Assembly (NCBI GenBank): GCA_015143295.1
Contig: CM026557.1
Location: forward strand, 27,189,760 to 27,253,759
DNA from: Tetracentron sinense
Taxonomy: Eukaryota; Streptophyta; Magnoliopsida; Trochodendrales; Trochodendraceae
Direction of reading: 5' to 3'
Length of the DNA: 64,000 bases
How positions within the stretch are numbered: position 1 is the first letter of the stretch; every line of letters begins with the position of its first letter. Shown here piece after piece: positions 1,682 to 64,000 of this stretch. Made by a program: the position numbers and the translations under genes. The notes under the pieces were generated by a model that was not told where the DNA came from, ran no database searches, and was given only the letters and a program-made list of their open reading frames with translations.

Positions 1682-1869
1682 GACCGATCGATCGGTGGTA
1701 TAGACCGAGCGATCGGTGGCTTACCGGTCGATCGGTGGTTTCAGCTGAGCGATTGGTTGAAAACACCCTCTCTGAAAAAATTTCCCCATACAAAAAAGTT
1801 GACCGCTCGATAGCTACCGAGCGATCGGTAGAAGACCGGTCGATCAGAGGTATCACCGAGCGATCGGTG
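1682..1869 (-). promoter_or_regulatory. GATCGATC palindrome cassette of LTR copy 1
   Basis: About eight 14-bp sites close to ACCGATCGATCGGT occur here (variants ACCGAGCGATCGGT, ACCGGTCGATCGGT). They form two groups around a non-palindromic core at about 1769-1800 that reads TTTTTTGTATGGGGAAA on the minus strand. The cassette ends about 55 bp upstream of the TATA box. Its role is inferred to be a multi-site binding platform for a dimeric DNA-binding protein; this is not shown. Confidence 0.75.
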
Positions 1870-2102
1870 ATCCCCTGTTTTGCTGAAAAACCTTGTTTAT
1901 GCTACTTGAATCTCCTCCAATCCAATTCTAACACTCTTTTATGCCTAAAACATACTTCTTAGTGATATATAGACCCACTAGAACATGTGCTCCATACTTC
2001 CAACCTCGTATATTCAATTAAAGCTTGCTAGTGCACAAGTTCACACTAGAACACTATTCAAACCATTCACTACTTAGTGAAATGAAATTTTGGGGCTCTA
2101 CA

Positions 2103-2330
2103 GACAATGCACCCTTTGATAAGCTTTAGAAATCCTTCACTGAAACTAAATTTCTTCAAAACCTTAATAAGGAAATCCCACTCTAATCTTTCATATGCTT
2201 TCACCATATCAAGCTTAAAAATCAAGTTCCCCCTCTCACTTTCTTGTTTATGTTAGCCGCTAAGTCTTGAGCCAAAGATCAACTTAGGAAGAATTGCCCC
2301 AGTCTAGATGTTATAATTTTAGAGATTATT
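2103..2330 (-). pseudogene. LINE reverse transcriptase, 5' part of the same copy
   Basis: The minus-strand translation contains LAQDLAANINKKVRGG, then a one-base frame change, then FKLDMVKAYERLEWDFL, the typical first catalytic-Asp block of plant L1 reverse transcriptases. It leads directly into the fragment at 1-241 once the solo LTR (242-2102) and one GACAA copy are set aside. A stop also lies upstream at the FFLS block. The element is dead and no LINE 3' tail is visible in the window. Confidence 0.8.
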
Positions 2331-4271: not shown

Positions 4272-5094
4272 TGAGGGGGGAAAATACCGGAAAGGACACG
4301 CGTCAGCTGAAACTGTTCATCTCTGGTTAACTGGTAGTAGGTGGGAGTTGAAGGGTGTGATACCCTGACCTGCACTCCGATGATAAAGTAAGTAGATGGA
4401 GAAGATGATGAATAGTAAGACATACAATATCACTCAAAAATATATGTGTTCTTCGATCCCCTTTTAACACTGAAATTCTCAGGGTATTTATAGGTTAACC
4501 TTGGTATGGCCATAGATGACCATAGATGACCATACCATGTGCCCTGCACTCATTACCAAATATGCCAGTAAAATCTACCACCTGTTGCATCACACGTGAA
4601 AGCCTACCATTAGTTCAGTCGGTTGGGTCTGACAACACACAGAAGTGACCTGCATTAAATGTCAAGACAGTGCTTTCGGCCCACTTGTCAGAACAATCGA
4701 TCGCCTCCTGATTACTCCCTCCTGCGAGTCGGTCTCGTTGTTGACTCGAGCTCGGGTACGTTGTATATGTCTTAAAATATGACCTCGACATCTTTATCTG
4801 AATCACAACGGACTCGTTGTTCAATTAACATCGAAAACGTTGTCGAGAATACAACGTCTACGTTGTGCACAAGACAACGAACACGTTGTCAAAACCACAA
4901 CGAGAACGTTGTTCGTAAGACCACGGATACGTCGTAATTTATACAACGTGAACGCTATGCATCAAACAATGTTTATCCTTCTATTTTAAGCACGTGACTC
5001 AAATACATGTCCACGTGTCACTTTCGTGCACAAAACAACAAAAGCTAGCTCATTCCCCAACGTCACTTAATTTTTACGAATTTTATCCCTTACA
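4272..5094 (-). repeat. Tat element 3' LTR
   Basis: It ends TGAGGGGGG...CTTACA and is the left-hand copy, which is 3' with respect to the minus-strand genes. It carries its own TATA box (CCTATAAATACCC on the minus strand, about 4483-4495). Confidence 0.92.
4804..4958 (-). promoter_or_regulatory. ACAACGnnnnCGTTGT palindrome cassette (Tat 3' LTR)
   Basis: Successive inverted pairs of ACAACG and CGTTGT have 3- to 4-base centres, for example ACAACGTCTACGTTGT, ACAACGAACACGTTGT and ACAACGAGAACGTTGT, with weaker pairs at both ends. In the transcription direction the cluster lies about 310 bp upstream of the TATA box at about 4485-4494. Confidence 0.75.
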
Positions 5095-5110
5095 ATTTGC
5101 CCCTTTATGA
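5095..5110 (-). other. Tat polypurine tract
   Basis: The minus strand reads ATAAAGGGGCAAAT directly next to the 3' LTR, as expected for the plus-strand primer. Confidence 0.7.
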
Positions 5111-5529
5111 GGCTTAGAACGTAGTTCGAAGTGTCATAAATGGACAAAAGAGCGACAGACCATACCTGACTCTACTTCCTGAATCTGAATCGTTGCGTGA
5201 TTTACACTGCGAAGATAGAACGCTCAAGCCAGCTGGTTTACACGTGCGAACCGTCACGCTTCATTAATGCAAGACAGACTGTCATCATTACCATTTTTGT
5301 AGAGCCCCGAAATTTCATTTCGCTAAGAATGAATAGTGTGTGAATAGTGCCCAAGTGTGGTTTTGTACACTTATGAGTCTTATGTTAATATAGGTGTTTG
5401 GAATTATGGCGTATATGTTCCAATGGGTCTATATGTCCTTAGGGAATGTGTTGAAAGCATAAAAGAGTGTTGGAAGTGCATTGGGGAAGATTCGAGTGGT
5501 GTAAACAAGGTTTTTCAGCAAAACAGGGG

Positions 5530-5720
5530 TCGACCGATCGCTCGGTCATTACCTGCGATCGATCGGTCCACTACCGATCGCTCGATGGCTATCGCACGGT
5601 TAACTTTTTTGTATGGGGAAAAATTCCAGAGAGTGTGTTTTTGACCGATCTCTCGGTCATAACACCGATCGATCGGTAAGCCTCCGATCGCTCGGTCCAT
5701 AGCACCGATCGATCGGTCAT
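5530..5720 (+). promoter_or_regulatory. GATCGATC palindrome cassette of LTR copy 2
   Basis: Seven to eight sites occur (GACCGATCGCTCGGTC, ACCGATCGATCGGT and variants) in two groups around the core TTTTTTGTATGGGGAAA at about 5605-5638. The last site ends about 52 bp before the TATA box. Confidence 0.78.
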
Positions 5721-5771
5721 ACGCAGTTTTCTTCATTAAGGGTGTTTAAGACTTTAAACACCACCCCTTGC

Positions 5772-5782
5772 CTATAAATAGG
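5772..5782 (+). promoter_or_regulatory. TATA box of LTR copy 2
   Basis: CTATAAATAGG lies just downstream of the palindrome cassette and upstream of the leader CTTAGGGTTTCAGAAACCC. Confidence 0.82.
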
Positions 5783-5985
5783 CTGAGTTCGTGCCTTAGG
5801 GTTTCAGAAACCCTCTGTGCCCTATCTTAGGAGATTTTGAGAGAGAGAAGAAGGAGAGGAACTACTTGTTGATCAAGCTTGTGGAAGATCAAGGTTCTTC
5901 CACTTCCCTTGGTGATTTCCAACCAAGAACTCACTGTTCTTGCTTGTTCCAGCCATTGGGAGTCAAAACCATTGATTCCTCTAAG

Positions 5986-6735
5986 GTAGATACACTCTAC
6001 TACAATCTTGCAATCCTACTAGTTACTAGATATGATTCTTCTTATATATGCCCTATCTATATGTATTGATTCTATGTATGAAAAGGTGTGATTATATACT
6101 TGGATGAAGGTTACTATTATGATGCACTCTAAGTGTTTGATGAAATACCTCTAAGGGATTCTATGCTTAAATATGATGATTTCTCTTATTAAGTGCATAT
6201 GCTCGCATGTCTCGCATAAACCGATGTTTTCCATGGATTTCTCAAAAGTACAAACAAGGGTTTTTCACGAAAAGACGAATAATGAATGATTCTAAGAAAC
6301 TCTATGATTTCTCTAAGATCGTTTCACAAGCTCTAAGGATCATACCATGCTCACAAGAAAACTCTATGATAATGCTCTAAGATCGTCTCACAAGCTCCAC
6401 GGATCACAATGAAATGCTCTAAGATCTCTAAGGTTATGCTCTATGGAAATGCTCTACGGTATTGCTCTATGCTCTATGTCTCTACGGATCACAATGACTC
6501 TAAGTAACTCCATGAACTCACAAGAACTCATAAGGCTATGATTATCGATTGACTTACACGGTTACAGTTTTTGTTTCGAATATTATCTCACATATGTTTT
6601 CACGGTTTCCATACTTTAAGGATTTTACGGATTTCATTCTCCATGTCTCGTATGCTCCATGCCCAACTGCTTTACTGTTATTAGTTTGTATACACTGAGT
6701 ATTCCATGCTCAGTCGATATTGTTATGATCGGCAG
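5986..6735 (+). other. Probable LTR-internal intron (copy 2)
   Basis: The donor CTAAG|GTAGATACACTC and acceptor GATCGGCAG|GTGCTCGGG give a 750-bp intron. The conserved block CTGAGTATTCCATGCTCAG (6695-6713) lies about 25 bp before the acceptor. Degenerate 30- to 60-bp repeats occupy 6300-6540. Confidence 0.55.
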
Positions 6736-7315
6736 GTGCTCGGGTTCCATTCGATTTGTGTGGCGACGAACCTTGGGTCGAGGAAGAGTACCGTGACCCG
6801 GAGCCTTCCATGGATCACTATCATGACGATGGTGCTCTAGATAGGAGTCGTGACTTCGATTTCTGTTGATCGACCGACTTAGAACTTGTGTCATTTTGTA
6901 TGTGAGTGTGGGGTTTGTCCACTCCACTTTTGGGTTTCTCACACATGTATACTTGTTGGTTCTTACTTGAGCCAAGCTATAGGAGTATTCATTTTGCTTC
7001 CGCTATGTTTAGTATTTTATTTTCCGCTGTGCATTGTATTTCGTTTCCGTTATGTATGTTCAGGTACTCTGACAGGTTTCCACGTGTGCCTTATGTATCA
7101 TACTGGAGGTATGGTACGGCGGTCACGAGTCAACTTACCCTTAACTCCTAGGGGGTATTTTGGGTCGCGACAATTTTGGAATTCAAAACACTTTATATCT
7201 CTGACGGTTACTCTCTTTACGTAAAACGTCGATCCTGCCACCACTCTTTCCGGCTTTGACACAGGTGTACGGCTCTGATGGAGGCTATTCTTGTCTTTTC
7301 ATTTCTCTGAGGTAT

Positions 7316-7324
7316 CTATAAAAA
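7316..7324 (+). promoter_or_regulatory. TATA box of the Tat antisense gene
   Basis: CTATAAAAA lies about 255 bp upstream of the chosen ATG at 7579, on the strand opposite to the Tat polyprotein. Confidence 0.6.
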
Positions 7325-8200
7325 TCCCTCTGGGTTGCTTCGTTTCACTTATCTCGCCACTGAAGTACTGTTACTCTGCCTCATTTGCGTCTCAAGAGAA
7401 AGTTCAAGCTCTCTTCAGGCTCTCTCGTTTTTCTCTTTGTGGTACGCTCTTATTCCTTTTCTAACTGTCTTTATTGATTCTTCTTCTCTCTCTTTCTCTG
7501 CTTCTTTTTCTCCTTCTCTATCGTCAGTCAGCCTATCCTTTTCTTACCCACTGTTCATTGTTCCGTTTCCCTCAATCCATGGCTACCGAGACCCCCATAG
7601 AATCCATTAGGCTAGATGAAGTTAGAGGCCAAACCGAAGATGAGGCTAGTTGCACTGGTAGCGCACCGTATGGTGCCTACATCGAGAAATCTTCCGCCTT
7701 ACGCCAACAACAGTTAGCATACTTTAACCATTTTAGGGAGCGTTTCGCGTTTCCTTCCCACGTCAACCTTCATTTCAAAAGGGAAGACGCCCATATTGAC
7801 AAACGATCAGCCTATATCATTGTCTACCTCTCCCAACTCGAAGCTGGTCTTCGATTTCCTCTTCATCCCGTCTTGGACAAAGTCCTTTCCACTCTACACC
7901 TTGCCCCAGTGCAAATGCACCCCAGCTTCTACAAATATATGTCCATGATGATTAAATTCATCAAGGATGGATACCCTATAGAAGCTAGACACCTCTTCCA
8001 CTTCTGCCACGCCGTCAGATGCCGAGGTACTGACGATGGCCCCTTTAACTATTATTCCTGGAACAAGAAGCCGTTGTACCCAGACCTTTTCTCAGGCATC
8101 CTGGACAGAGAAAGAGGGTGGAAGGCAACTCCCTTCGTTGTCTCTGGGGGCTGGAAGGCAGAGACTTCCACTGTGCCCAATGTTTTCCAAGATAAACCAG

Positions 8201-8334
8201 GTAACACAATACCGTTGTCCGTTGTCCGTTGTACATTACTTCTTCTGTCTCTCCATCTCAGCGTCCATTGTCAGTTACTTTTATTCGTCCTGCTTACTTC
8301 CGTTGTCTCACACTTTTGTTTCTGCTCTTTGCAG
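8201..8334 (+). other. Intron 1 of the antisense gene
   Basis: CAG|GTAACACAAT ... CTCTTTGCAG|TTG; it is pyrimidine-rich before the acceptor and joining keeps the frame. It contains three CCGTTGT words in tandem (8212-8233). Confidence 0.75.
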
Positions 8335-9137
8335 TTGAAGGGAAGAAACTCCCGTTCAAAAAACTTGCGCTCGAGGAGGAAAGTCTTCTTACAAACATCA
8401 AGCGAGTACGAGGTGGGGAGTACATCCGGTGGACACCACTACCACCTCATACTTGGAGTTTCTTCAGTAGCTCGAATCCGTCTTCACAAAGGCAACAAGG
8501 CACCTCCTCCTCCTCACCCGCAGTTGAGCCGAGCTCGGAAGAAGAAATGGCCAGCACCAACCCTCCTGCACTGATCCGAAAGCCAAGGACAACTCATCCT
8601 GCAACTGCGCTGCCTCCTCTTCCACCTCCTCCAAAGACAGTTCCCTCCACAACGGGAGAGGCACCTTCCGAGCCGAAATGGAAGATTCTTACCCAGGCTG
8701 AGTTCGAGGCCAAAAAGAAAAGAAAGGAAGAGAAGCGCCGTGAGAAGGACAATGCGCCTACTGCCACTTCTTCCCCTTCTGCTCCTGCAACACACCAAGG
8801 AGCAAAAGCTGCAACGGGAACGCCAGTAGTCAGCAAGATACCTACTGCTACTCCAGCTGTGGCTGCCCCGATCGCTTCGAGCTCCGCTCTGGTTGCTGTT
8901 GCCACAACGGATACGACCACGACGCGTCTGCCAATTGGAGCACCACCTTCAAAGGACATAGACTGGTCACCCGACTTCACGCGTTTCGGGAGGCCCACCG
9001 ATAACGACTCGGTGCAGACCTCGGAGAAGGTTGCTAGGGCCTTGACCCACTCTATGAGACTTCCCCAGGACATTGCTGATGCTGGCAAGATATCCTTGCC
9101 CCAAGTCTCTTATGCAGCCTGCCAGTCCATGGCCTTG

Positions 9138-9220
9138 GTATGACTTCAGTCCTTTCTCCCCTATTTACTTGTTCAATTCTCGTTGTGATATACTAATGTT
9201 CCTGATCTTTCGTACTATAG
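9138..9220 (+). other. Intron 2 of the antisense gene
   Basis: The donor is TTG|GTATGACTTC and the acceptor ACTATAG|CTG, with a plant-like branch site TACTAAT at about 9191. The intron is 83 bp, and removing it avoids an in-frame stop. Confidence 0.75.
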
Positions 9221-10014
9221 CTGAATGTCCTCCTCCACGAGTTATGCGATCGTAGTACCTACCACTACAATCACCTCAAAGACTCCATCAGCTACTGGTA
9301 AGGAAGGACTGAGGCACTAGAGAGAACTCTGGCCGAGGATCGACTCAAGATTGAGTTCGACCTGTCTCAAGCCCGAGCTGAAGTGGTGCGGGTGGAGGAG
9401 AAGTTCACTGCCACCTTCAAGGGGCAAGAGAAGGCAGAAGGCGAAGCTCGAGCAGCCAAGGAGGGAGAAAAGAAAGCCAAACAAGAAGTGGAGAACGCCG
9501 TTCTCCGACTTAGCGAGTTGGAGCTCGTCTCTTAGGCTCTGAGCAGGCAACTTGAGGAAGCTGAAGCAGCGAGAGCGACGCTGATGGAGGAGCTCGAGGA
9601 AGCCAAAAAAGCTGAAGGGCCATCGAGCAAGCGGTGACCATGAGATTGCAACAACACTATCAGTCTCAGCTGGATACTCTTCTTGACGAGGACAGGGCAG
9701 AGACCGAGAAGGAGGTGATCAACATGCTCCGCCAACAAGGTCGTCTAAAGGAGGACAACGAGGAGGACGTGACTACCTTCTCCGAGCTTCAGAGCAAGGA
9801 TGTCATCGACCTCGACAACGAGACCGAAGTCGAAGGAGTTGAGAAGCCATACCCCCTCGAAGGCCCTGCACCTCTTCCAGCTGAACCATACTTTGAGCCA
9901 GCTACTCCTGAAGCTCCTCCTGTTGCCGAAGATCCTCCCGTTGCCACGGAAGCTACTGATGCTGCTGATCCTACTGTCTCCCCTACTGCTGTCCCTGCTA
10001 CTGCTGAAACTTGA

Positions 10015-10743
10015 TTTCTTCTCTCCTTCTTACTGAAACTTTTGTAATGCATTCTCTTTCTCCCCATGTGATGGGGTTTATCTGTACGTTACCCAGCAAT
10101 GGGTTTCTCTAAATGAATGAGCAATCTCTCTTTCTTTTCTTTGCACCTTTCTTTACTCTTTGTAGTGTAACTGGAATTTGCGGAGCTCGTACAACGTATG
10201 CATACAAGAAAGAATATAACATAAGTGTATGATATGTTTTACGGATCATAGAATCAGACATAATCATAATAGCTCACAACGTAGGCACTTGAGTGTATGT
10301 AAATGAATCTTTTTCGTAATGATTGATGCACACATCGAACAAAGCACTCTGAATCATACACACAACGGAAACATACACACAACGGAAAAGAGAAATATGC
10401 CTAGATACATCGTTATGTAGTTCACTGTGAATGTAATCTGACAAATAAAATTTCATAAGATGAACATAAAGTAACTCAGTTTAGAGACACTTGCTCAGAG
10501 GATGCCATTAGGATAAGCCACTGGATTTGCTCAGATGACATCCTTAGGATAAGCCACTAGTGTCTTGTTGTGAGTATGCTGTTCGAGCAAAATTTTATTC
10601 GAATTTGCAAAACATTCACAATATTACACTGATGTTCCAGACAACGAATTAACGCAAAACTTCGTAGCAGTATAATTTAAATGCGCACGGAATAACACTG
10701 GAAAACTCTTTATTATAACAACTCATTTATTCACCACAGATTC
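10015..10743. other. Convergent gap between antisense gene and integrase
   Basis: No coding region is visible. It holds the presumed 3' ends of two convergent units. A direct repeat of about 36 bp, with the core AGGATAAGCCACT, occurs twice at about 10487-10561. CACAACGG/ACAACG words occur six times. Confidence 0.55.
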
Positions 10744-11990
10744 TATTGAAAGAATTGCCTTAGGTTCATAATATTCCAGGATTCTTGGATAAGATTACCT
10801 TGCAGATCTTTCAAGTAGCAAACTCCAGGACTCCCCAATCGTTCTACGATATAGGGTCCTTCCCAATTAGGCCCCAACTTGCCACTGTTAATCTCCCTGG
10901 TATTCTGGAATACTTTTCGGAGAACGAGATCTCCGACCTGAAGGACTCTTCACTGTACCTTTCGGTTGTATGCCTTCCTTAGCTGTTGCTGATATCTCCT
11001 CATCTGAATGCTAGCATCTTCTCGCTTTTCTTCTAACAAGTCGAGGTGAATGGCCATGAGCTCAACGTTCTTGTCTTTCTCTCCACTCTGCTTCTTGCTA
11101 TGCCAAGAGCGTATTGCGGGCAAACTAATCTCAGTAGGAATGACAGCTTCCATGCCATAAGCCAAAGAGAAAGGTGTTTCATTTGTAGGACTCCTCGGTG
11201 TCGTCCTATATCCCCACAATACGTTGTGCAGCTCGGTAGTCCATTTTCCCTTCGAGTCTTCCAATCTTCTCTTCAAGGCGTTCAATATATTTTTATTAGC
11301 TGCTTTAGCCAATCTGTTTCCCTGAGGATAATATGGAGACGAGAAAACATGTTTGATCTTCAATTCGCTGCAAAAGTCTGCAATGATACGTCCTGAGAAC
11401 TGTTTCCAGTTGTCAGTGATAATGGACTGAGGTATGCCGAACCTACAGACGATATGCTCCCACATGAACTTCTTCACTTCTTGTTCTCTGATACGAGCAA
11501 GGGGAACGACTTCAATCCAACGAGAGAAGTAATCAATTGCCATGAGGAGAAAGATTAGATTCCCTGGGGCTTTAGGGAAAGGTCCCATAATATCAAGACC
11601 CCATCGTGCAAATGGCCAAGGTTGGGAGACAGTGTTAAGCTCTTGAGCTGGAGCATGAATTAAACGAGCATATCGTTGACACTGGTTGCACTTCTTCACA
11701 TACTTTTGAGCATCAGCTTGTATGTAAGGCCAGAAGTATCCTTGCCCCAGAGCTCGATGAGCTATCGTTCTTCCCCCTGAATATATGCCACAAATCCCTT
11801 CATGAAGCTCAGCAAGAATCCTCTCCACATCTACAGGATGAACGCATTTCAACAAAGGTCCCCCGAAAGACTTTTTATATAACTCTCCCTGCACCAGGAC
11901 ATATCGAGGTGCCTTGAACTGGATACGTCTTGACTCTTTTACAGTGATAGGAAGAACTCCATCTTTCAAGTAAGCCGTCAACCCTGTCAT
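10744..11990 (-). pseudogene. Tat integrase
   Basis: Integrase joins the cDNA to the target. A zinc-binding HHCC-like block (HRALGQGYFWPYIQ ... KKCNQCQRY) is followed by the catalytic core with Asp in WGLDIMGPF and Asp in SIITDNWKQF. The expected third acidic residue is missing: where Tat elements have a Glu before AANK, this copy reads LAKAANK, so Glu is replaced by Lys. The usual Gly of the TDNG motif is Trp. A TGA at 10950-10952 cuts off a still recognisable C-terminal region (VGDLVLRKVF ... GPYIVERLG) that ends near 10744. It is inactive on several counts. Confidence 0.85.
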
Positions 11991-14038
11991 CCAACTTGGT
12001 ACTGGATTAACAAAACATACCTCCCGCTGAGACTGGAGTGTTTATCAGACTGCATCATGGAAGCAAGATAAGCCAGAGCATCAGCATGCCTATTCTCATC
12101 TCTTCGGGTATGCTTGATCTCCACAACGGTGAATGCTTCACACTGCAAATGAATGAGTGCAGTATACTGTTTTATTCGATCATCCTTGCATTCATAGTCT
12201 CCATTCACCTGATTCACTACAAGCTGTGAATCACAAAAAACTCTCAATCTAGAGACTTGCAGCTCGTGCGCACTCTGCAAGCCAAGCAGCAATGCTTCGT
12301 ACTCAGCTTCATTGTTGGAGGCAGCAAACCCAAGACGTGACATCTTCTGTACTTTTATGTTCTCCGAACTAATGAGCACAATACCAAGTCCTGAACCACT
12401 CGAGTTAGAAGATCCATCTACGTACAACAGCCAATCAACCCATTCTGATGATTTATCTCCATCTACAACGATATCTTCGTTGTCAACTTGATCAGGGAGC
12501 TCACGAAGATCAGCAATCACCTCCTCTGCCTCCTCCACATGGAAGTCAGAAAGGAATCCTGCCATTGCCTGGCCCTTCTCTAAACTTCTCGCTCTGTACT
12601 GAATATCGAACTCACTCAGAGCCACAGCCCACTTCGACATCCTTCCCGCCAACTCGGGTCGTCCCAACACGACTTTCAAATGATACGTTGTGATGACAAT
12701 GATAGTATGAGCATGAAAGTAAAAACAAAGCTTTTCAGCAGAAAAGACAAGAGCAAGACACACCTTCTCGAGCTTGCTGTAATTACATTCTGCCTTGAGA
12801 AAATTTTTGCTGATGAAATATACAGGCCTCTCAACGCCGCCACAACACCGGACAAAGACTGAGCCAATGGCCTGCTCTGAGACAGAAAGATACAGATACA
12901 AGACTTCACTTGGTTCAGGGACAGAGAGAATAGGGGCTGAGCCTAAATACTCTTTCAAAGCAATGAAAGCTCGAGAACACTCTGGCGTCCATGCAAAGAT
13001 AGAATCCTTTCTCAGGAGCTCGAAAAGGGGTTTACAACGATCAGATGACTTTGAGATAAACCGATTGAGTGCAGCGATACGCCCTGTTAACTTCTGGTTC
13101 TCCTTCTTCGACTTGGGCTCCGGTATGTCCAGCAGAGCTTGAATCTGAGCTGGATTAGCTTCAATACCCCGCTGGCTCACAAGATATCCCAAGAATTTAC
13201 CAGAGGTAACCCCGAAAGTACACTTCTCTGGGTTTATCTTTAAATTGAAAGTTCTCAGAATAGAGAAAGGCTCAGCAAGATCCTTCACAAGGGTATTCCG
13301 AAGTCGACTCTTCACAACGATGTCATCAATGTAAACTTCAACCGTCTTGCCGAGGAGTGGCCCAAACATGAGATTCATCAAACGTTGATACGTGGCACCG
13401 GCATTCTTCAGACCAAAAGGCATAACACGATAACAGAACAAGCCACGCTCTGTAATGAAAGTGGTCTTCTCTTGATCTTCTTCCGCCAGGAGGATTTGAT
13501 TATAGCCCGAATAACCATCCATAAATGATAACATTTCATGGCCAGCAGTGGCATTGATGAGCCTGTCAATCCTTGGCATAGGAAAAAAGTCTTTGGGACA
13601 TGCTCTATTGACACCAGTGAAGTCAATGCAAACTCTCACCTTCCCATTCTTCTTGGGTACAGCTACCACATTAGCTATCCAGTCAGGATACTGCACTTCT
13701 TGGATGAACCCAAATTGGATCAGCTTGTCTATCTCTTCATTCACTGCATCATGATAGGTTGGGGCAAGTCTCCGAGGTTTCTGCTTCACCGGAGGGACAG
13801 CAGGATCAACGTTGAGGTGATGGCAGATAATGCTCGGATTTATGCCTGTCATATCTTTGTGCGACCATGCAAAGACATCAAGGTTCTTCTTCAAGAATTC
13901 TAGCAGCTCGCCCTCTTCGTCCGTTGTCAAGCTCGTCCCTATCTGCAGCACCTTTGGCTCTTCTTCTGTTCCTAAATTAACTGCCTTCGTGGGCTCAACA
14001 GAAGGTCTACACAACGTGGCCTCCAAGCTCTCTCCCAC
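11987..14038 (-). pseudogene. Tat reverse transcriptase-RNase H
   Basis: The RT domain occupies roughly residues 80-290: PKKNGKVRVCIDF, MDGYSGYNQI, MPFGLKNAGATYQ and the catalytic YIDD (VEVYIDDIVVKSR). A connection region with FLGYLVSQRGIEANP follows, then a first RNase H-like domain with the usual Asp and His sites altered, then a second, typical RNase H (LYVDGSSNSSGSG, NNEAEYEALL), as in dual-RNase-H Tat elements. It is in frame with the protease segment upstream, separated only by a TAG at 14060-14062. The downstream join to integrase is frameshifted near 12020. The 684-codon open stretch is the best preserved part of the element. Confidence 0.9.
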
Positions 14039-14059
14039 AACGGAGTCGACCTGTAATTG

Positions 14060-16504: not shown

Positions 16505-16538
16505 GATCACAAAGAGCTAAGGGAGGTTCTTTTATGAT

Positions 16539-20554: not shown

Positions 20555-20555
20555 G

Positions 20556-49645: not shown

Positions 49646-49659
49646 TTCTCCCCCCCTTA
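49646..49659 (-). other. Element B polypurine tract
   Basis: The minus strand reads TAAGGGGGGGAGAA, adjacent to the 3' LTR. Confidence 0.92.
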
Positions 49660-49737
49660 CAAAAATTTCATCCCCGAAATTTGGACGATACATACACGCA
49701 CAAAATCAGAACAAAATTACAAGCCATTTGCACAAGT

Positions 49738-53069: not shown

Positions 53070-53201
53070 CTGTGCGATTAAGTGACTACTATTAGTAGAT
53101 TTCAAACAACAAGCATCATACATAGGTAACCCCTAGTATAGAAACTCACAAAACAAACCATAGAAATTTTACACAATTTAAACCCTAGAATTCGTGCGTA
53201 C
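53070..53201 (-). other. Spliceosomal intron at the gag-protease junction of element B
   Basis: On the minus strand the donor is GTGCAAG|GTACGCACG and the acceptor AATCGCACAG|GCGC. A consensus plant branch site CTACTAAT lies about 25-30 nt before the acceptor. The intron contains stops, is T/A-rich compared with its exons, and its removal restores phase between gag and protease exactly. Element A has no such insertion at the matching place. Confidence 0.82.
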
Positions 53202-54459
53202 CTTGCACGACATCGTCGGATGCACGTGCGTCTCTCTCTGATAGGGCGAAAACTCGACCCTGTGTGGCTGGGCGAGGAGGCCGTGTAGACGGTGAGGCCC
53301 TCGAAGCCTGAGAAGAGATAGGCTGAGATGTCTGCCTAACCGGGGGCCTGCTCCCTGAAGACTGAGTTGGCAATTGACGCCGGGGACAATCTCTGACCAT
53401 GTGGCCTTGGTCACCACAATGGAAGCAACTTCCTGAAACTCTCCGGCATTCTCCCGCTGGATGCCTCCTCCCACAAAGAGTGCAAACATCATGCAAATAG
53501 GAGGAAAGAGCATATCCTGTAGCCTGAGTAACTGCGGGGCGAGGAGCATATGAGGTAGCCGGGCGAAAGGCCGGTGGAGCAAAAGAGCGGGGAGCCTGTG
53601 GTGCTAAATACATCCTCTGTGACTGAGCCGGCCCTGCGGACTGATACAAGCTCGTCCTTGCTCTTTTCTCCCCTGAACTACTCGACTGTCCTTTTTCCAT
53701 TCCTCTCCTTTTGAAGAACTCCTCGGAGTTCGACTCGGCCAATGGTGCTTTATCAACAACTTCGGAATATGTCTCATGTCTAAACATCGAGACTCGGTCC
53801 TTGAGATAGGCCTTCAACCCCCTCTCGAATTTCCGGGCCTTCATAGCCTCGGTCGCTATCATGTGTGGAGCAAATCGAGATAGCTCCGAAAATTTGGCTT
53901 CATAAGCAGCTACGGACATATTACCTTGCTCCAAGGTAATGAATTCGACTTCCATCTTTTCTTTCATCCCGACCGGAAAGTACTTCTTGTTGAAAACCTC
54001 CAAGAATTCCTCCCAAGTCCAATCTTGACCTTGCCGGGTCAACTCTCGGGTCCGAAGTACAGACTTCCACCAATGATCGGCCTCACCTTCAAGCATGAAG
54101 GTGGCCCATGTGACCCTTTCCACTTCAGAAGGTGCTAATACCGAGAATATCTTCTCAAGTTGCCGGATTCAACCCTCGGCAACAAGTGGATCAATGCTTC
54201 CACAAAAAGTTGGAGGCTTCATCCTCCGAAAAGCTTCTATCCCGGCTTGGGCTCGGTTAGGAGGAGCCGGTATAAGTGCCGCATTAGGCGGAGTGGCCGG
54301 TTGCCTTGCCGCCAACATAGCCAAAGTCTCGGCTATGGATGCGAATGCTTGGGCAAAGTCAGGTTGATCATCACCCGATGGAGCATCACCTCCATTACCC
54401 CTCGTGTTGTACCCGCGACCCCGGGTATTGCGTCTCATGATTTCTCCGGAGAACGACAA
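53202..54459 (-). pseudogene. Element B gag
   Basis: The frame opens at 54459 (MSFSGEIMRRNTRGRG; the likely native start is the second Met, MRRN). The capsid region includes FMLEGEADHWWKSV, FNKKYFPVGMKEKMEVEF and QGNMSVAAYEAKFSELSRFA. Two intact zinc knuckles follow: CTLCGRRHPAGEC and CFHCGDQGHMVRDC. A TGA at 54169-54171 replaces the conserved Trp that follows the AE motif, the same codon hit in element A. It ends at the intron donor at 53202. Confidence 0.93.
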
Positions 54460-54745
54460 TACAACGTGAGTCTAACTTGGATATGCATTTAGTACAAATT
54501 TCGCAATTCACTCAATACATATTCATCAAACATATTTAATAAGTACAACACAATTAATGCACATATGGTATAAAACACAACATCATCCATACAATCTGTG
54601 TTCCTAGCGTAGGACTCTAAGTTTGGTTGAGATTCAACCTATTTTGACTAGGACTAACTTGTTAGTCCATACTTGGAATACAACTAATGCCTTGTTCAAT
54701 CATGGTCTCTAGTACAATGCGACCCTAGGGACTCTAATGCCTAGA

Positions 54746-54757
54746 GCTCTGATACCA
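54746..54757 (-). other. Element B primer-binding site
   Basis: The minus strand reads TGGTATCAGAGC, three bases after the 5' LTR; initiator-Met tRNA type. Confidence 0.95.
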
Positions 54758-54760
54758 CTC

Positions 54761-57204
54761 TGTAACACCCCGAAATACCCCCTAGGAGTTTAGGGATATT
54801 TTAGGTGTCACACTGCGTACCTATCAAACCATCCTGTAATGCACAAGATAAAAATACAGTACTAACAACGATAATCAGAGCGCGGAAGCTATCATATATG
54901 CGGAAGCGTAAATAAATTTTCATTTCCTCTGATGATCCAAAATAGTATTCCAAGTTAACATAAATACAAGACATGTCTAAGTCTAAGGTGGACAGGCCCA
55001 CCTATCAAAATATCAAAATACACAAGACCCTCTCATACTCTCCCCTCAACAGTAGTCGAGGTATAGCCACGCATCGAGGTCTCGGTCCGCCTGAGACTGT
55101 AATGGAATAGTCGGCTCTCTCTCCTCTATATACTCTTCCTCGACCCAAGGCTCCGGGTCGAGGGCTCCCTCAGTACCTGCCGACATGAAAGTACGGCTGA
55201 GCATGGAATACTCAGCGAGTACAAGCTACTAGCAGACCATAACAATAATAAAACACACAATAGTAATATTATACAAGCAGTAATAGAAACCTCGCAAAGA
55301 AACAGTATAGGGCATGACACAATACAAGCATCCTGACGTACGTACATGAATGCGAAAACGCCGATAAAACTCATGCTTGAAAACCCCTGTCATGTCCCGG
55401 TATGCCTCGTAGAAATCATGTATGCGTGCATGCATGAATGCATGATCATCATCTTGTAAACCTCCATCTTGTAACTTGTGAGCCAGAGGCTAGCACCCGA
55501 ATCTCCCTGGGCTGCCAACCTCCTTGATATGCAATGCACTTGTGAGCCAGAGGTTAGCACCCGAATCTCCCTGGGCTACCAACCTCCTTGTTATGAAATG
55601 CAGGGTTTTCTTGTGAGCCAGAGGTTAGTACCCGAATGTCCCTGGGCTACCAACCTCCTTGACAATAGGTGATTTTTACTTCTTGTTTAGTTTTCTTGTG
55701 AGCCAGAGGCTAGTACCCGAATGTCCCTGGGCTACCAACCTCCTTGACAATAGGTGTTTTAGGGGTTATCTTGTGAGCCAGAGGTTAGTACCCGAATCCT
55801 CCCTGGGCTACCAACCTCCTTGACATGCAATATTTTCTTGTTGTTTATTATATGCACATGCTCTTGAAATCTCGGTTCATGCTATCATGCGTGCTCGTGT
55901 ACGTGTCCATAGTGACAATCATGATAATGGGAATAACCAAAATATGACATTACAATTCAATTCATGATATGAACATAGGTAATATAAGTAGTTTGCATAA
56001 CATTTGATCAATTTATCATTTATAAGAACGCATGCATAAAACCCATTTCTATATTCTTCATTGAGATCATTTATTCATAGTTTAGGTATTTTGTCAAACA
56101 CTTTCATACATTATTCCTTAGTAGTTTATCTCCTTCTTTTAAATGCATATTTTCCATTCAATCACACAATGGTAAGTTTGTTATTTGTACTATGCCCATC
56201 CTCCATTTTCCAATCCACAACCCACACATCATACATCACATTCGGCATCCAATCGCCACATCCAATCTCCCATCCACACATTCATTCCATTTCCCTTATC
56301 TTGTTTATATTTGTTGAGTTAATACAATGCATAGGGAAGGAAAAGCATAATGTATAGAATCACCATTTATACTAGAAAACCTAGGTTATTGCTAGGGAAA
56401 GTTAGTAGGGTGTACTAACCTTGCTCAAGGCTTGATCCTTGGTGGGAAACTTGATTGAAGCTCCAAAAGGGTAAGGAACAACCCTTGCTTGGGGAAGACT
56501 CGAGTTGGGGAAGAAACCCCTTTCAACACGTACGTGAGATGGCTGCCCTAGCTTGGAGAGTGGCTCCCACGCGAGCTTGAGCCTTGAACTTGAAGCAAAT
56601 CCAAGTTTGAGGACGACCAAGGATGGTCCACCCCTTTGATTTCTTCCTCAATACCAAACCCGAGGTTAGAGCTTTCTCCTCTTCTCTTTCTATCTCTCAA
56701 AATCCCTCAAATGTTGTAAGTGAGGCCTCGAAGGGTCGAGCAAACCCTTATGGGTAAGGGTTTAACGCCCAAAAGACGAAAAAGCCCTTACTGAAATTTC
56801 TGCAAAACACGGGGACCGAGCGATTGGTGGTTATGACCGATCGATCGGTTGCCTACCGAGCGATCGGTGTTATTGACTGGTCAAAAACTCACTCTCTGGA
56901 AAATTTCCCCATACAAAATTTCTAACCGTGCGATAGCTACCGATCGATCGGTTATGGACCGATCGATCGCTGACTGGACCGAGCGATCGGTGCTCTGTAT
57001 GTCTGGACTGTTTTGACCATATCTTTTGACTCGCTCGTCGGATTTCGACGATTCAACTTGCGTTGGGTTCGTCTTTCAAAAACGCACATTTCTAACTTTT
57101 CGGAATTTCCGATTTCTCTCTTATTTATTAATTAGACTATGAGGAAGGCCAATTAGCTACGAAATGCCTATTAATTTAAAGATGGAAAAGTCTGGGGTCC
57201 TACA
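54761..57204 (-). repeat. Element B 5' LTR
   Basis: It is 2,444 bp, with the same arrangement as 47219-49645. Differences include two short insertions and the loss of 8 bp inside the palindrome cassette. The minisatellite lies at 55474-55832 and the probable intron at 55177-56419. Confidence 0.95.
56815..56998 (-). promoter_or_regulatory. GATCGATC palindrome cassette, element B 5' LTR
   Basis: As in the 3' LTR, except that the site GACCGATCGACCGGTC is reduced to GACTGGTC (about 56877-56884) and the first site has decayed to CCGAGCGATTGGTGG. Confidence 0.76.
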
Positions 57205-57699: not shown

Positions 57700-57913
57700 T
57701 GTAGAGCCCCGGACCTTTTCGCATTTAATGCATGACACTTTCGTTGCTATTTTGCATTTAAAGAGGTATAATTAATAATTAAGGAAGAAATTGGAAATTC
57801 CGAAATGTTAGAAATGTTCCTTTTCGAAGTACGAACCCAACGCAAGTTGAATCGTCCAAATCGGACGAAACGAGTCAAAAGATATGGCCAAAACAGTCTG
57901 GACCTGCAGGCAA

Positions 57914-58450
57914 TAGTAGCTCGGAAGGCACTAAGGAAGTAGCTCGGAAGGCACTAAGGAAGTAGCTCGGAAGGCACTAAGGACGTAGCTCGGAAGGCAC
58001 TAAGGAAGTAGCTCGGAAGACACTAAGGACGTAGCTCGGATAACGTGCTCTGACAACGTGCTCCGATAAGGCACAGACAATGCATAGACAACGTACTCTG
58101 ATAACGTATACGTTGTGCATCCATTGTGCAACAGACAACGGGTACGTTGTACAGCAAACAACGTGTACGTTGTACAGCTCACAACGGGTACGTTGTACAG
58201 CAACAACGTGTACGTTGTACAGCTCACAACGGGCGCGTTGTACATAAGACAACGGACAACGAGCTCAGCACTATGCACAACACAACGTGACAACGTGTTC
58301 AGCACTATTCACAGCACAACGTGTTTGGCACTATTCACAGCACAACGTGTTCGGCACTATTCATAGCACAACGTGTTTGGCACTATTCACAGCACAAAGT
58401 GTTCGGCACTATTCACAGCACAACGTGTTTGGCACTATTCACAGCTCAAC
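57914..58450 (+). promoter_or_regulatory. Composite repeat and ACAACG palindrome cassette
   Basis: There are three blocks. First come six direct repeats of about 23 bp (GTAGCTCGGAAGGCACTAAG) at 57916-58040. Then palindromes of the type ACAACGnGTACGTTGT occur about four times with the spacer ACAGC (58130-58245). Last are about seven 26-bp direct repeats (CACAACGTGTTYGGCACTAT...) at 58275-58450. It stands where the sister LTR at 62097 has a GATCGATC cassette. Confidence 0.78.
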
Positions 58451-58778
58451 GTGTTCAGCACTCGTGTTTTTGTAGAAATTTCAGTAAGGGTATTATGGTC
58501 TTTTGGTCGGTTCACTCTTACCTTAAGAGTTCAACCCGAGCCTTTATGGCTCATTCTCAACACTTTGAGGATTTGGGGGATTAGAAGAGAGGAGAAAGGG
58601 TTTCCTAAGCTAGGGTTTTGCTTTTGGAGAAGAATCAAAGGGGTTTTGAGACCCTAGATCACTTCAAGTCTGGTTTTTCTCCAAGATCACGGCTCAAGCA
58701 CTCGTGGAGAGCGTTCCCCAAGCTAGGGCAGCACCTCACGGTCGTTTTTGGAAGGGGTTTCTTCCTCATTTCTTCAAG

Positions 58779-59915
58779 GTCGGTACTTCTTGCTACCCTC
58801 CTAGTTATAGTTTCTCTTTTCCCTTTATTTTCCTTTGTTTTCCTTCATTTACACATGTATTATGAGATGGGTTGTGAATGGTGAATGGGAATGGTGAATG
58901 GAGATGGAATGGGCGATTGGATGCCAAGGGTTGTGTTGTGATGATTAAAATGGGGAGGGCATTGTATCCATAATAAACACACCTTTATGATTTGAGTAGA
59001 CTCACCTAGAAAAGCATGATTTAGGTTTAAATGAATAATGAATAATGAACACACCATGTTTGATGAAATGCCAAGGTGAATAAAATGAGTTGTAAATTAG
59101 GAAATGCATGCCTAATAAATTATGAATATTGCTAGGGCCTATGATAGTGTGTTTTCTTGCTTTCCCTAAATGATATGAATATTACATTGCTCAATCATTG
59201 ATGTTATATGTGTTATGAAATTACCCAAATGTCATATTTAAATTTAAATGCAAGTATGTACACGGTTCCCACGAGCACGGCATGCATGACATGATTTATC
59301 GAGGTTTTCAAGAACATGGTTAGAGGTGGGACATATCCTACGATATGTTTTACCTCGCTTTTCACAAGAAAACAAGAACCAACATTCCATGAGGGGTCTC
59401 CCCTCACTCACAAGTGCATATCATGAAGAAGGGCCTCCCTTCCCTCGCAAGTACATACATATCATGAAGAAGGGTCTCCCTTCCCTCGCAAGTGCATTGC
59501 ATAAAGAAGGGTCTCCCTTCCCTCTCAAGGCATCTCTCAAGCGCATCTCACAAGGATATCTCACAAGTGTATCTCACAAGTTACATGATCACAAGCAAGC
59601 ACGTATGACATGCATGACATGACACGTATGACACGCTCGACAAGATCAAGTAAGACAAACACGACAAGCTTTCAAGTACGAAAAGATATTTCAAGCCAAG
59701 TCAAGTGCACGATGTTTTCAAGAGGTTTTATCGGCTTTCTACGAAATACAAGCATGATTATAAATTGCTTTGCTTCCTTGTATGATATGAATTGTTTCCT
59801 TCTAACATATATGAATTGCTCCTGAATTATGTATACTATCTGTATGCTATGACTATTGGTTAGTATTTGGTACCCGCTGAGTATTCCATGCTCAGCCGTA
59901 CTTCTTATGTCGGCA
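58779..59915 (+). other. Probable LTR-internal intron (57700 LTR)
   Basis: TTCAAG|GTCGGTACTTC ... CTTATGTCGGCAG|GTTCTGAGG, 1,137 bp. The conserved CGCTGAGTATTCCATGCTCA lies at 59876-59895. A 45- to 60-bp repeat (GAAGGGTCTCCCTTCCCTCG) occupies about 59390-59530. Confidence 0.55.
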
Positions 59916-60329
59916 GGTTCTGAGGGAGCTGCTGCTCCATTTGATGTTTGTGCTCCTGGTCCATGGATGGAAAAGGGGTACGTTGAGGAACCTTTGGAGG
60001 AACCTCCAGTAGAGGGTTACCATTAGGTGGTTGTAGATTCTGAGTGGATTAGCTGTGGGTGAGCATGAGTGATTATATCCATGTATTTTGGCGGGTATGT
60101 CCGCACTTTCTTTGTTTTGATCTTTTTGTATAAACTTGGATTTCCATGTGTTTATACTTAGAGGTTTGTTAGACTTCCGCTGTGTCTTATAGTTATGCTT
60201 CCGCTGTTATCCTCTATTGTATATGCCCTGTGGGTGTTTTGCAGGTGGTTTGTCAAGCAAGTCATGTAAAGCCATGATTAGTCGTCCAAAGTTCACTCTA
60301 ACTCCTAGGGTGGGTTATGGGTCGCGACA

Positions 60330-62096
60330 AATTTGGCCATGGACCATGTTTAATGAGGGCCAACTTTGGCTAGCCTGTGGACTTGTCTTATAAAGTCTGT
60401 CCATGAACTAACTCAAAGAGTCAATGCACAAGGGCTAACTCAAGTTTGTTCATCGGGACAGATTTCAGACACGTGTCAGTCCTATAGGGACTGTCAGAAT
60501 GCATGTCTGCAGGGTATCATTACCCTGCTGCTAATATTAAATGTTGGCGCACGTGCCTTTGGCACACGCAAAGGCCAACCATCCATTTCATAGGCGGTGA
60601 TTAGGTGTGGATAGGTGCACCATGCACCTGCCCTGCAAACAGTGAGATTTCATTGCCACAAATGTCCCTCAAGATCTGAACGGCTGAAAATGATTCAGCC
60701 ATTCAGATCCAACCACGTGGCAATGATCGTTGGGAGGCTAATAGTCTCCTCATTCAAGAGGCTACTCCTTAGTAGGAAGCCCACTATGAGGTGGGGGTTA
60801 CTGAGAAAGCCTCATGATGAGGGTTACTCATCCTTAATCTTTAAGTGGTCTTCTTTAACAAGAAAGGAAGGGCAACCGACACAAGGGAATATTGACTAAC
60901 CTACTTTTTTCTTTGCCCCCGTCCTGACATTCCCCAGACGACGGGAGATATTCTCCGGCCATTAGGGCCATCCATTTTAAAATAGATGGCCATGATACAA
61001 TTTAAGGGGTCCGTATATAAGGGACACTTAATCTATGGGGAAGGCATTTTCCTTCCTAGAAACTAGAGCTTGGAGAACTCCAAAGAACCAAAGTTCCCTA
61101 TTTATGCTCTTAGAAGAGAAAGTTCATCTAAGAAATTTCTTTCTTCCCTCAATTTCTTCTTTCTTTCTTCAAGTGGGTTCAGTTTTTTTATCAAACCAGT
61201 AGTGGGAAAGAGCATTTGGCTCTTTCTTGTTTCCCTTTTCTTGAAAGTAACACTTTATTTGGGTTTCTTGGCTCACAGAAGGAGCGATGAGGGAGTTTCC
61301 TCATCTAGACAATTTGGAATGCCCTTCTGAGCATTCTTTGGGGTTTTCCCTATTGAAGGGATCCCTAGAATGCCCATTTGTGCTTCCTGCTCTTTCCGGC
61401 AAGAATTCTAATGCCATTACTGGAGTTCCAAGGTTTTCTAATAAGGGAAACCTAACTAGTTACCATAAAGGTGACCTCCTATCCGCAAACTTGTCTGTAG
61501 ACTAACTTGTTCAAAGGAATTTTTTCGCGAGCTAAAACTGGTGCCCAGAACATTTGTGTCCATGGGCTCTAATTAATGTTCATGGGCACTATGCCTACAG
61601 GCATTAATTATTGATCGTGGACATTTTGTCCATGGGCTTGGACTTTTTCAAATTTTGGTTAAGTCTTTAAAGTTGTCTGCAGACTAGACTTTTCCAAATT
61701 TTGGTTAAGTTCATAGAGTTTTCCACAGACTGTTTGTGACCTGGACTTTTCCAAATGTTGGCTAAGTCCTGAGAGTTATCCACATACTTATCTATGGGCT
61801 GGAATTTTCCAAAATTTGGCTAAGTCCTAAAGAGTTGTCCACAGAATGTCTACTGGCTGGGCTTTTCCAAAATTTGTTTAAGTCCTGAAAAAGTTGTCCT
61901 TGGACCATTTTAAACAAGTTAAGGCCATTAATATACACCTAATTAAGTTGTCTCATAATTAAGCATGCTTTGAGTCCCTTGGTATTTTAACTTAGGGGCT
62001 TATTGGTAAGCCTGGCCTTGACCATTTTGGTTGAGGCCTGGGGTCTATTTGTGACCTCAAGATTAGGTTATTTCATCCTCTTAGGGACATTGCTAA
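60330..62096 (+). other. Unidentified LTR-like region with hairpins, TATA and minisatellite
   Basis: No protein is recognised. A hairpin with 16-bp arms (one mismatch; GATCTGAACGGCTGAA arm) lies at 60673-60709, and one with 13-bp arms (GGCCATCCATTTT arm) at 60966-60991. A TATA box, CCGTATATAAGGG, lies at 61011-61023. A minisatellite of five units of about 60 bp (CTTTTCCAAATTTTGG, TTAAGTCCTGAGAGTTGTCC) lies at 61640-61907. The order is that of an LTR, but the ends were not found. Confidence 0.45.
61640..61907 (+). repeat. Minisatellite, five units of about 60 bp
   Basis: Units contain GGACTTTTCCAAATTTTGG, TAAGTCCT and GTTGTCCACAGA, with 10-25% differences by eye. Confidence 0.85.
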
Positions 62097-64000
62097 TGTA
62101 GAGCCCCGAACCTTTTCACATTTAATGCATGACACTTTCGTTGCAATTTTGCCTTTAAAGAGGTATAATTAATAAATAAGGAAGAAATTGGAAATTCCGA
62201 AACGTTAGAAATGTTCGTTTTCAAAGTATGAACCCAACGCAAGTTGAATCGTCAAAATTGGACGAACGAGTCAAAAGATATGGCCAAAACAGTCTGGACC
62301 TGCAGGCAACCGATCGCTCGGTCCATAGAGCGATCGATCGGTCCAAAACCGATCGATCGGTAGCTATCGACTGGTCAAGATTTTTGTATGGGGAAATTTT
62401 CCAGAGAGTTGATTTTTGGTCGAGAGCTCGGTCAACACACCGATCGCTCGGTAGGCAACCGATCGATCGGTCATTAACACCGATCGCTCGGTACTCGCGT
62501 TTTTGCAGAAATTCAGTAAGGGTATTATGGTCTTTTGGTCGGTTCACTCTTACCTTAAGAGTTTAACCCGAGCCTTTAGGGCTTCATTTCGACACTTAGA
62601 GAGATTGGGAGATAAGAAGAGAGGAGAGGGCGATCCCTAAACCTAGAGAGAGATCTTAGAAGAGAAGGGAAGAGAGTGGAGGATTGCAAGAGGGGTTTTT
62701 GGATTTGGAGAAGAAGAGCACAAATCGAGCCTTGATCTCGCTCCTACTCGCCATTGGAGCTTGGATCTCCAACATCAAGCTTGGGTTTCACTTCTACAAG
62801 CTTCTTCAAGCCTTTTCAAGCATTGGATCAAAGGGATTTCATCCCATAAGGTAGATACACTCTACTAGGTTCTAATTTCATAAACCCTTAATGAAAAGCA
62901 TGATTTTCTTGACAAGTATAGTTATATATAGCCTCTTATATGTAAAAATACACTCTTCTAGCAATTGATTTCATGAAACCCTTTCTACATCAAGATAAAA
63001 TCCCATGAATGATGGTGTGAATTAAATGTGATGATGTTATGCTTCCAACCAACAAATAAAAGATGGTAATTTTTGAGTTGTTCTATATGTTAGTATCCAA
63101 GATGAAAAGCATGTTAAAAGCAACAAGTTTTGGGAAGAACAAGTAGAAAAACCTTATTTTAAATGTGATTGGAATGGTGTGATGTTATTGTATATGGATT
63201 ATGGTGATGGATGAATTATGTTGAGTATGAGACATATGACCATATGTAAAGGGTTTTCCCTAATGTCTACCATGTTATATCACAACTGCTATACGGACAC
63301 ATATGCATATGCATGATCGAGTTTTTCTAAATTATGGGTATCCCAAAAGAAGAAATACATGTATATAAGATGCAATACAAGAATAAGAAGACGAAAAGTA
63401 TAAGATGTAAATGAACCAAATGAATAGTACAAGAAGCACAAGATGTATACAGAAAGTATAAGAAGCACAAGCGGTATAAGGAAAAGTATAAGAAGCACAA
63501 GATACATACAGAAAATACAAGAAGCACAAGATGTTACAAGAAATACAAGAAGATGGAAAGTATATGGAAAAAGCCGACAGGGATGCGACGATAGCAGGCC
63601 GCCTAAAAGGGAAAGGGATACTGGCATCGGACTCCGATGATAGCAGGCCGCCCGGAAGGGAGATGGATACTGGTCGTCTACCCTTAAGGTAGCCGAAGGT
63701 GAGGAGAACATTAGGCCACCCAGCTTACGTGGGTACAGGTACTAGTTGTCCTACTCCGGAGGTAGCAAATGATGAATACCAAGGTATTTTAAATACCCGT
63801 ACAGGATAATAAAAGATAAAAGCCAAGGTATTTTAAATACCCGTATATGCAAAGGTGCAAGATGATAAGAAGATGTTTTCGACAAAAGATGATAAGAAGG
63901 TGTAAAAGACAAAAGATGATAAAAAGATGTTTTCTGATAGTATTTCCCGAGATATATGCACACGATATGATTTTGTTTTCCGCGCTCTGATTTCAGGAAT
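62097..64000 (+). mobile_element. LTR, Gypsy-type family 2, copy 2 (cut by window end)
   Basis: It starts TGTAGAGCCCCGAACC after GCTAA (62092-62096) and runs off the window. The first 210 bp match the 57700 LTR closely, as does the stretch after the cassette (GTAAGGGTATTATGGTC, TTACCTTAAGAGTT). A splice donor ATAAG|GTAGATACACTC lies at 62851. Later repeats are AAGTATAAGAAGCACAAGAT (63430-63550), GATAGCAGGCCGCC (two copies, 63590-63670) and AAAGATGATAAGAAG (63855-63930). Whether it is solo or part of a full element cannot be told. Confidence 0.85.
62309..62492 (+). promoter_or_regulatory. GATCGATC palindrome cassette, 62097 LTR
   Basis: Seven sites (ACCGATCGCTCGGTCC, GCGATCGATCGGTCC, ACCGATCGATCGGT and others) surround the core TTTTTGTATGGGGAAA / TTCCAGAGAG at 62380-62409. 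Confidence 0.78.

Follow-up and report, generated by a model that had tools for sequence, protein, structure and literature searches.

The closest described counterparts of the sequences analysed here are the RM boxes of Sireviruses, repeated palindromic motifs that occur in 3-14 copies in the 3′ long terminal repeat (LTR), mostly in its upper half, with CpG islands and shortly upstream of the TATA box (PMC2829016, in its accessible sections). The same sections report RM boxes to be absent from other Ty1/copia elements, and no Gypsy elements were seen among the data described there. Maize Sirevirus palindromes likewise form clusters of variable sequence in the LTR cis-region and are small-RNA hot spots (Bousios et al. 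2016, as cited in excerpts of PMC5311732 and PMC10760457). Here, we examined a 64-kb stretch of the Tetracentron sinense genome (contig CM026557.1; hereafter the window), in which twelve LTR copies, representing about seven LTR or LTR-like families of this one genome, carry arrays of CG-containing palindromes. A preliminary description of these arrays knew of no named feature of the kind, which the RM boxes contradict: they broadly resemble the arrays in symmetry, number of copies, CpG content and position, as far as the accessible text of PMC2829016 goes. We lean towards reading the cassettes as U3 enhancer (upstream activating) modules, composed of sites for dimeric DNA-binding proteins and exchangeable as wholes.

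Palindrome arrays and their host LTRs

The arrays are real, as confirmed by clustering of CG-dyads far beyond shuffled sequence. In a blind scan of the whole window (arms of at least 5, gap 0-6, CG-containing), we detected 133 dyads, where 40 dinucleotide shuffles gave 68.2 ± 7.0, and ten intervals with at least four dyads per 200 bp, where the shuffles had a mean of 0.2 and a maximum of 2. Nine of the ten dense intervals are regions that it had listed. The tenth, 41345-41635, lies in the 3′ LTR of a Gypsy element without an array and contains four CG-dyads, all of them different words, with no word repeated. A second blind scan, for clusters of a single palindromic 6-mer, returned 10 clusters (60 shuffles: mean 0.13, maximum 1) and added the arrays at 29.2 kb (TTCGAA, five times) and 43.3 kb (GTCGAC, six times); two of its clusters fell off the listed regions, namely ACTAGT at 44927-45226, a tandem repeat, and CATATG at 63233-63306. 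The 46.8-kb array, with four dyads, was missed by both blind scans and detected by word scan only. All twelve listed copies were recovered in this way, nine by the dyad scan, two by the 6-mer scan and one by the word scan, and the reported number of 4-8 sites per array stands, with ACAACG LTRs reaching 9-10 when weak matches are included.

Outside the cassettes, the five words occurred only 5 times at up to two mismatches. Dyad density was 19.8 per kb in the cassettes of ten LTRs, 0.9 in the remainder of the same LTRs and 1.5 outside 13 tested LTRs, a contrast that is partly circular, as cassette limits were drawn from the dyads, and that counts the 29- and 46-kb arrays as 'outside'; the blind scans are the fair test. 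In the two LTR families without arrays, to which the preliminary description had ascribed one or two palindromes, dyad density was 2.5-3.2 per kb for the Gypsy element at 31.6-42.3 kb (LTRs at 31.6-34.4 and 39.5-42.3 kb) and 0.9 per kb for the Copia element at 3440-28363. The exact word ACCGATCGATCGGT was found in 41 stretches elsewhere, with one site each, which we take as chance, and a protein search with an open reading frame (ORF) spanning the F3b cassette gave four candidates, none at E 10 or better.

The window consists of nested LTR retrotransposon DNA, as seen by self-comparison, Pfam scans and inspection of ends. LTRs were delimited by self-blast, ends and target-site duplications (TSDs) were read by inspection, domains were assigned by Pfam scans, and we infer the lineage of solo LTRs. 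Six copies share one homologous module of about 185 bp, in which dyads are 86% alike between families and flanks 40-44%. Three are solo LTRs of family F1: F1a (242-2102, minus strand, 5-bp TSD GACAA), with its cassette at 1683-1868 (minus strand; 7 dyads, 8 with one weak match); F1b (5298-7172, plus strand, TSD ATTTT), inserted in element T, with its cassette at 5533-5717 (plus strand; 7 dyads); and F1c (18286-20139, plus strand, TSD TCCCC), inserted in the Copia 5′ LTR, which is interrupted by T as well, with its cassette at 18510-18695 (plus strand; 8 dyads, allowing up to three mismatches). Two more belong to F2, a chromodomain Gypsy element on the minus strand (47219-57204, TSD TTGGA) with LTRs at 47219-49645 and 54761-57204 that are 97% alike; both cassettes are on the minus strand, the low-coordinate copy, which belongs to the 3′ LTR, at 49248-49432 with 7 dyads, and the high-coordinate copy, which belongs to the 5′ LTR, at 56815-56991 with 6 dyads and one weak, one dyad being partly deleted. 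The sixth, F3b, has an LTR part alignable to the solo LTR F3a outside the cassette (62097-62640, plus strand; self-blast and blastn) and a cassette at 62309-62492 (plus strand; 6 dyads and one weak). In F1, F2 and F3b, the dyads are of ACCGATCGATCGGT type and stand three plus four either side of an A/T-rich centre. This centre (5600-5629 in F1b, with homologues) is itself conserved, at 0.78 between families, and contains a near-palindrome.

The remaining arrays use other words. Element T, a Tat/Retand-type Gypsy element with a nested insertion (4272-17383, minus strand, TSD GTCAG; LTRs at 4272-5094 and 16561-17383), carries seven dyads of ACAACG-N4-CGTTGT type, four with perfect arms, at 4805-4958 in its 3′ LTR and the same array at 17094-17247 in its 5′ LTR, both on the minus strand. 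The same word type occurs in F3a (solo LTR 57700-60329, plus strand, TSD AATTT). Its block at 57914-58459 (plus strand) holds six dyads at 58101-58241 amid 23-bp and 26-bp tandem repeats, so the earlier account of 57914-58450 as a palindrome block is right for those dyads, whereas most of the block is plain tandem repeat. The flanking repeats (57915-58040, 23 bp, 5.5 copies; 58290-58462, 26 bp, 6.7 copies) contain CTCGG and ACAACG pieces. At 29213-29382 (plus strand), five dyads of CCGTTCGAACGG type occur in an LTR-like host of unproven limits; none is perfect, and the word CCGTTCGAACGG, named in the preliminary description, has no perfect copy anywhere. F4, an LTR-like sequence at 43011-46083 (plus strand) that begins with TGTAGAACCCCG and has an arbitrary right end, yielded no TSD on inspection; its array at 43273-43537 (plus strand) comprises seven GGTCGACC-type dyads, as three 21-bp pairs plus one. 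The 46-kb array (46847-46955, minus strand) consists of two 21-bp pairs of ACTCGTCGACGAGT-type dyads, four dyads in all, its LTR limits being unproven. For the sequences at 43.0, 29.2 and 46.8 kb, which are LTR-like with unproven ends, no associated coding part was recognised in the window, and the SIRE-like label of the preliminary description is at most putative for the 29- and 46-kb arrays.

In ten LTRs, whose starts are known or inferred, the cassette begins at LTR position 137-263. Cassettes had been described as lying just upstream of the TATA box, and this holds for F1 (55 bp downstream of the F1b array; 55-56 bp across F1), the 43-kb array (72 bp) and the 46-kb array (83 bp on the minus strand); at 29 kb, the sole candidate is a weak TATTTA at 60 bp, and T, F2 and F3 depart from the pattern, as set out below. 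All four gapless words are centred on TCGA, a pattern spotted post hoc and countered by the published Usier word, which is gapless with an ACGT centre.

Spacing and conservation of the dyads

As first described, LTRs of different lineages carry their clusters at a comparable position, and the form and spacing of these clusters favour sites for dimeric factors. Each two-fold-symmetric site would be bound by one dimeric DNA-binding protein, and with sites about two helical turns apart, neighbouring dimers could cooperate upstream of the LTR promoter, presumably activating rather than repressing it. LTR lineages that differ in their words would probably use different factors in a similar layout. 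That LTR cis-regions are often repeat arrays, at times palindromic (PMC10760457, in its accessible part), counts in favour of this reading.

Comparison of F1 with F2 and F3b (9 comparisons) gave identities of 0.86 for dyads, 0.78 for the centre, 0.59 for spacers, and 0.40 and 0.44 for the left and right flanks. Between F2 and F3b, the corresponding values were 0.94, 0.87, 0.75, 0.82 and 0.68, and within F1 they were 0.88, 0.87, 0.78, 0.79 and 0.89. Across the seven units of T, arms were 0.88 alike, the N4 core 0.38 and the spacer 0.30, against 0.26 for random sequence, and the 23-bp register has been kept without an indel. These values bear on neutral tandem-repeat turnover, in which slippage or template switching would add and remove short U3 repeats, with palindromic units amplified by chance. 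Several cassettes are indeed called as 19-23 bp tandem repeats, and F3a has its 23-bp and 26-bp arrays next to the dyads, with core and spacer still alike. However, neutral turnover predicts even decay, whereas arms outlast spacers by far in T and in F1 versus F2/F3b; the register of T is preserved; and other repeats, such as 44962-45342, lack a CG-dyad cluster in the blind dyad scan. We therefore consider such an origin unlikely.

The main rival explanation is that structure matters, with hairpins that form in DNA or in U3 RNA, at the genomic 3′ end, and feed small-RNA production and silencing, or aid RNA dimerisation and template switching. When each of the twelve cassettes is compared with 100 dinucleotide shuffles, all fold with greater stability (z −3.7 to −6.9), and the palindromic regions of maize Sireviruses coincide with small-RNA hot spots (PMC5311732 and PMC10760457, as excerpted), but palindromes fold anyway. 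Among 423 arm pairs, 349 were intact, 71 had one-sided changes, 1 was compensated and 2 were otherwise changed. This count covers ten arrays, excluding the second LTRs F2b and T5; sites with more than three mismatches were dropped except at 29 and 43 kb, and degenerate outer positions were trimmed in three arrays. Compensated changes thus amount to 1 of 74, where a hand estimate of chance gives about 1, although the F arrays share descent and their arm changes are not all independent. As arm changes are not compensated beyond chance, sequence-specific dimeric proteins are favoured over structure, and half-site sequence, not pairing, seems to be what selection has kept. Moreover, the arms of T hold one sequence while the spacers drift, where structure alone would allow paired arm drift, and helical-face spacing would be meaningless for RNA hairpins. 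A structural role is accordingly improbable in our estimation.

Neighbouring dyad centres lie 19-21 bp apart in F1-F3b and exactly 23 bp apart in 6 of 6 steps among the seven T units; the 29-, 43- and 46-kb arrays contain seven close pairs, every one of them at 21 bp; the F3a steps are 34, 23, 23, 22 and 23 bp, and a 14-bp step appears in four F arrays when weak matches are included. Helical phase was tested with each step randomly displaced as the null and a free repeat of 10.0-10.6 bp. F1b and the 29-, 43- and 46-kb arrays were phased (R 0.95-0.99, p ≤ 0.005, repeat of 10.0-10.4 bp per turn), and the homologous F1a, F1c, F2a, F2b and F3b gave R 0.76-0.96 with p 0.0005-0.04, varying with the mismatch limit. 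Dyad centres thus fall on one helical face in four independent array types, and two others keep an unphased 22-23 bp register. At a fixed phase of 10.5 bp, p was 0.0005 for the 29-, 43- and 46-kb arrays together and 0.014 when F1b was added. Within an array, pair duplication may explain the repeated 21-bp steps (43278-43368 matches 43361-43450 by self-blast), so families and not pairs are the independent units.

The cassettes are also CpG-rich, with observed/expected ratios of 0.75-2.49 against 0.32-0.73 in the remaining LTR, the cassette being higher in 12 of 12. This would suit a role as targets of silencing or self-regulation, with CG-rich symmetric sites drawing methylation or repressors, or an element-encoded protein, such as the antisense TRP28 of Retand, binding its own LTR. 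An antisense TRP28 (PF04195) ORF between the Gypsy pol and the 3′ LTR marks Retand elements, and the Retand domain is considered capable of DNA binding (PMC11963269, in its accessible part). Antisense to T, ORFs on the plus strand at 7465-9140 fit the Retand layout; the first (7465-8574) lies at the expected place and matches PF04195 weakly (E 4e-4, 20.9 bits, below the curated cut-off of 26.2). An element should, however, lose a purely harmful target, the PF04195 match of T falls short of its cut-off, and TRP28 would serve T only and not the other families. Silencing or self-regulation as the purpose of the arrays is therefore very unlikely in our view.

Several observations weigh against enhancer modules of dimer sites. 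T and F3a were not phased (p 0.94-0.98), fitting an 11.4-11.5 grid, with a spacing of about 2.2 turns; with all six array types, the fixed 10.5-bp phase gave p 0.11, and the strong phasing result was obtained only with a free repeat of 10.0-10.6 bp. Similar spacing could also arise by duplicating a palindrome together with a short spacer. Within F1, the right flank (0.89) is kept as well as the dyads (0.88), and in F3a, arms are identical (1.00) with core (0.65) and spacer (0.69) alike too, as in a young tandem repeat. As for promoter position, F2 and F3 have no match to the TATA patterns used, and the downstream TATA box of T is 312 bp from the array, with another TATAAA within it. Finally, the replacement described below is a single case.

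Cassette replacement and possibly mosaic LTRs

The sister LTRs F3a and F3b are 94% alike over 214 bp before the cassette and 87% over 150 bp after it by blastn (in the alignment, 201 bases out of 212 and 128 out of 144 are identical). Between these flanks, F3b has a ACCGATCG cassette, whereas F3a has 546 bp made up of tandem repeats with ACAACG dyads, and the two resemble each other no more than shuffled sequence does (local score 25; 100 shuffles with a mean of 20.7 and a maximum of 37). The difference is a cassette replacement. Since F2 and F1 have ACCGATCG at the same place, it is probably F3a that shows the derived state. An LTR family would in this way swap its entire cassette for another, perhaps by template switching between co-packaged RNAs or by gene conversion.

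The host LTRs had been called unrelated. Different lineages are indeed involved, but the homologous module is common to F1, F2 and F3b, together with a few short colinear blocks, so that descent and not convergence accounts for several copies. F4, with blocks of 60-67 bp in common with F1b, F2a and F3a, bears yet another word. Beyond about 544 bp (62640-64000), F3b has no blastn match to F3a or F2a and a single 21-bp match to F1b; it appears to be mosaic or truncated, and these LTRs may be mosaics. Separately, a block of 60-69 bp in the 3′ part of the LTR (6677-6743 in F1b) is common to F1b, F2a, F3a and F4 at 78-90%.

T and F3a both have ACAACG-N4-CGTTGT at about 23 bp, and blastn matches their arrays (E 1.5e-4) as well as one 34-bp stretch outside (82%, E 5e-4). 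A common factor and common descent are equally possible explanations. Transfer of a cassette between the T LTR and F3a was considered and set aside, as with the arms fixed the remainder is hardly more similar than shuffled sequence (the forward score is attained by 26 of 500 shuffles, the reverse score by 273 of 500). Integration into palindromes, a subject of PMC6911290 (in the portion seen, short palindromes at integration target sites), was rejected as an origin of the arrays, the T, F1b and F1c insertions lying outside cassettes.

The palindrome arrays may act as exchangeable switch modules. A broader proposal, which we put forward tentatively and with more doubt than conviction, is that several plant LTR lineages share a promoter grammar in which cassettes can be exchanged. 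Each cassette would consist of CG palindromes, either TCGA-centred or spaced, that stand about two helical turns from one another and often face the same side of the helix, and a diversifying family of dimeric host factors would read them; a change of cassette would then alter the host signal or escape a silenced specificity. If true, this would offer a handle on the host factors that wake or silence large retrotransposon families and show how an element changes its own regulation in one step. If general beyond the window, the RM box would be a wider promoter layout of plant LTR retrotransposons and not the oddity of one genus, acquired and exchanged as a module.

Comparison with RM boxes and other LTR promoters

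RM boxes were described in Ty1/copia Sireviruses, whereas arrays here occur in chromodomain Gypsy (F2) and Tat/Retand-type Gypsy (T) elements, both with coding evidence. F2 has the Gypsy-type order of reverse transcriptase (RT) and integrase, with a weak chromodomain match; a PDB search with its integrase end retrieved Ty3 and PFV integrases, and an RT search of viral contigs found no related loci. T encodes RT, RNase H, a second RNase H and integrase. Where RM boxes number at least 8 per element, we count 4-8 dyads per LTR, most copies being solo LTRs or fragments. In distance to the TATA box, F1 and the 43- and 46-kb arrays resemble RM boxes, T (312 bp) does not, F2 and F3 gave no TATA match, and the 29-kb array has its weak candidate; with regard to CpG islands, the CpG ratio here exceeds that of the remaining LTR in every cassette.

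The words are partly alike. Of the Sirevirus words in Table 3 of PMC2829016, the Vitis word CGGTCGACCG lies within the 43-kb word, and the Vitis and Tnd-1 (ACAATCGATTGT) words have a central TCGA, that of Usier having ACGT. The CGG-CCG core of RM boxes is present in one of the five words here (43 kb, CGGTCGACC type) and absent from four: ACCGATCGATCGGT and CCGTTCGAACGG have the reverse order, CCG...CGG, and the ACAACG and ACTCG words have neither. Tnd-1, itself a Sirevirus, also lacks this core in the same source. Cassette replacement and helical spacing do not figure in the accessible RM box description (PMC2829016).

The maize Sirevirus palindromes belong to the Copia families Ji, Opie and Giepum, as far as the cited excerpts go, whereas arrays here are found in Gypsy elements as well. 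The heat-responsive LTR of ONSEN is similar in that its promoter uses the sites of a host factor, which for the arrays here is proposed, but ONSEN LTRs lack CG sites and the cassettes are CG-dense (PMC3907296, accessible text). Palindrome arrays in Gypsy LTR promoters were not reported in the titles and abstract openings of the matches listed, which is weak evidence, as subscription literature lies mostly outside the search, nor in the passages of PMC12016029 and PMC9780303 consulted. Among the matches listed, ACCGATCGATCGGT appeared only in connection with a bacterial regulator, and six shorter words gave no LTR title. Taken together, the kind of feature is already known as the RM box, and its presence in Gypsy LTRs, its replacement and its phasing are the new part.

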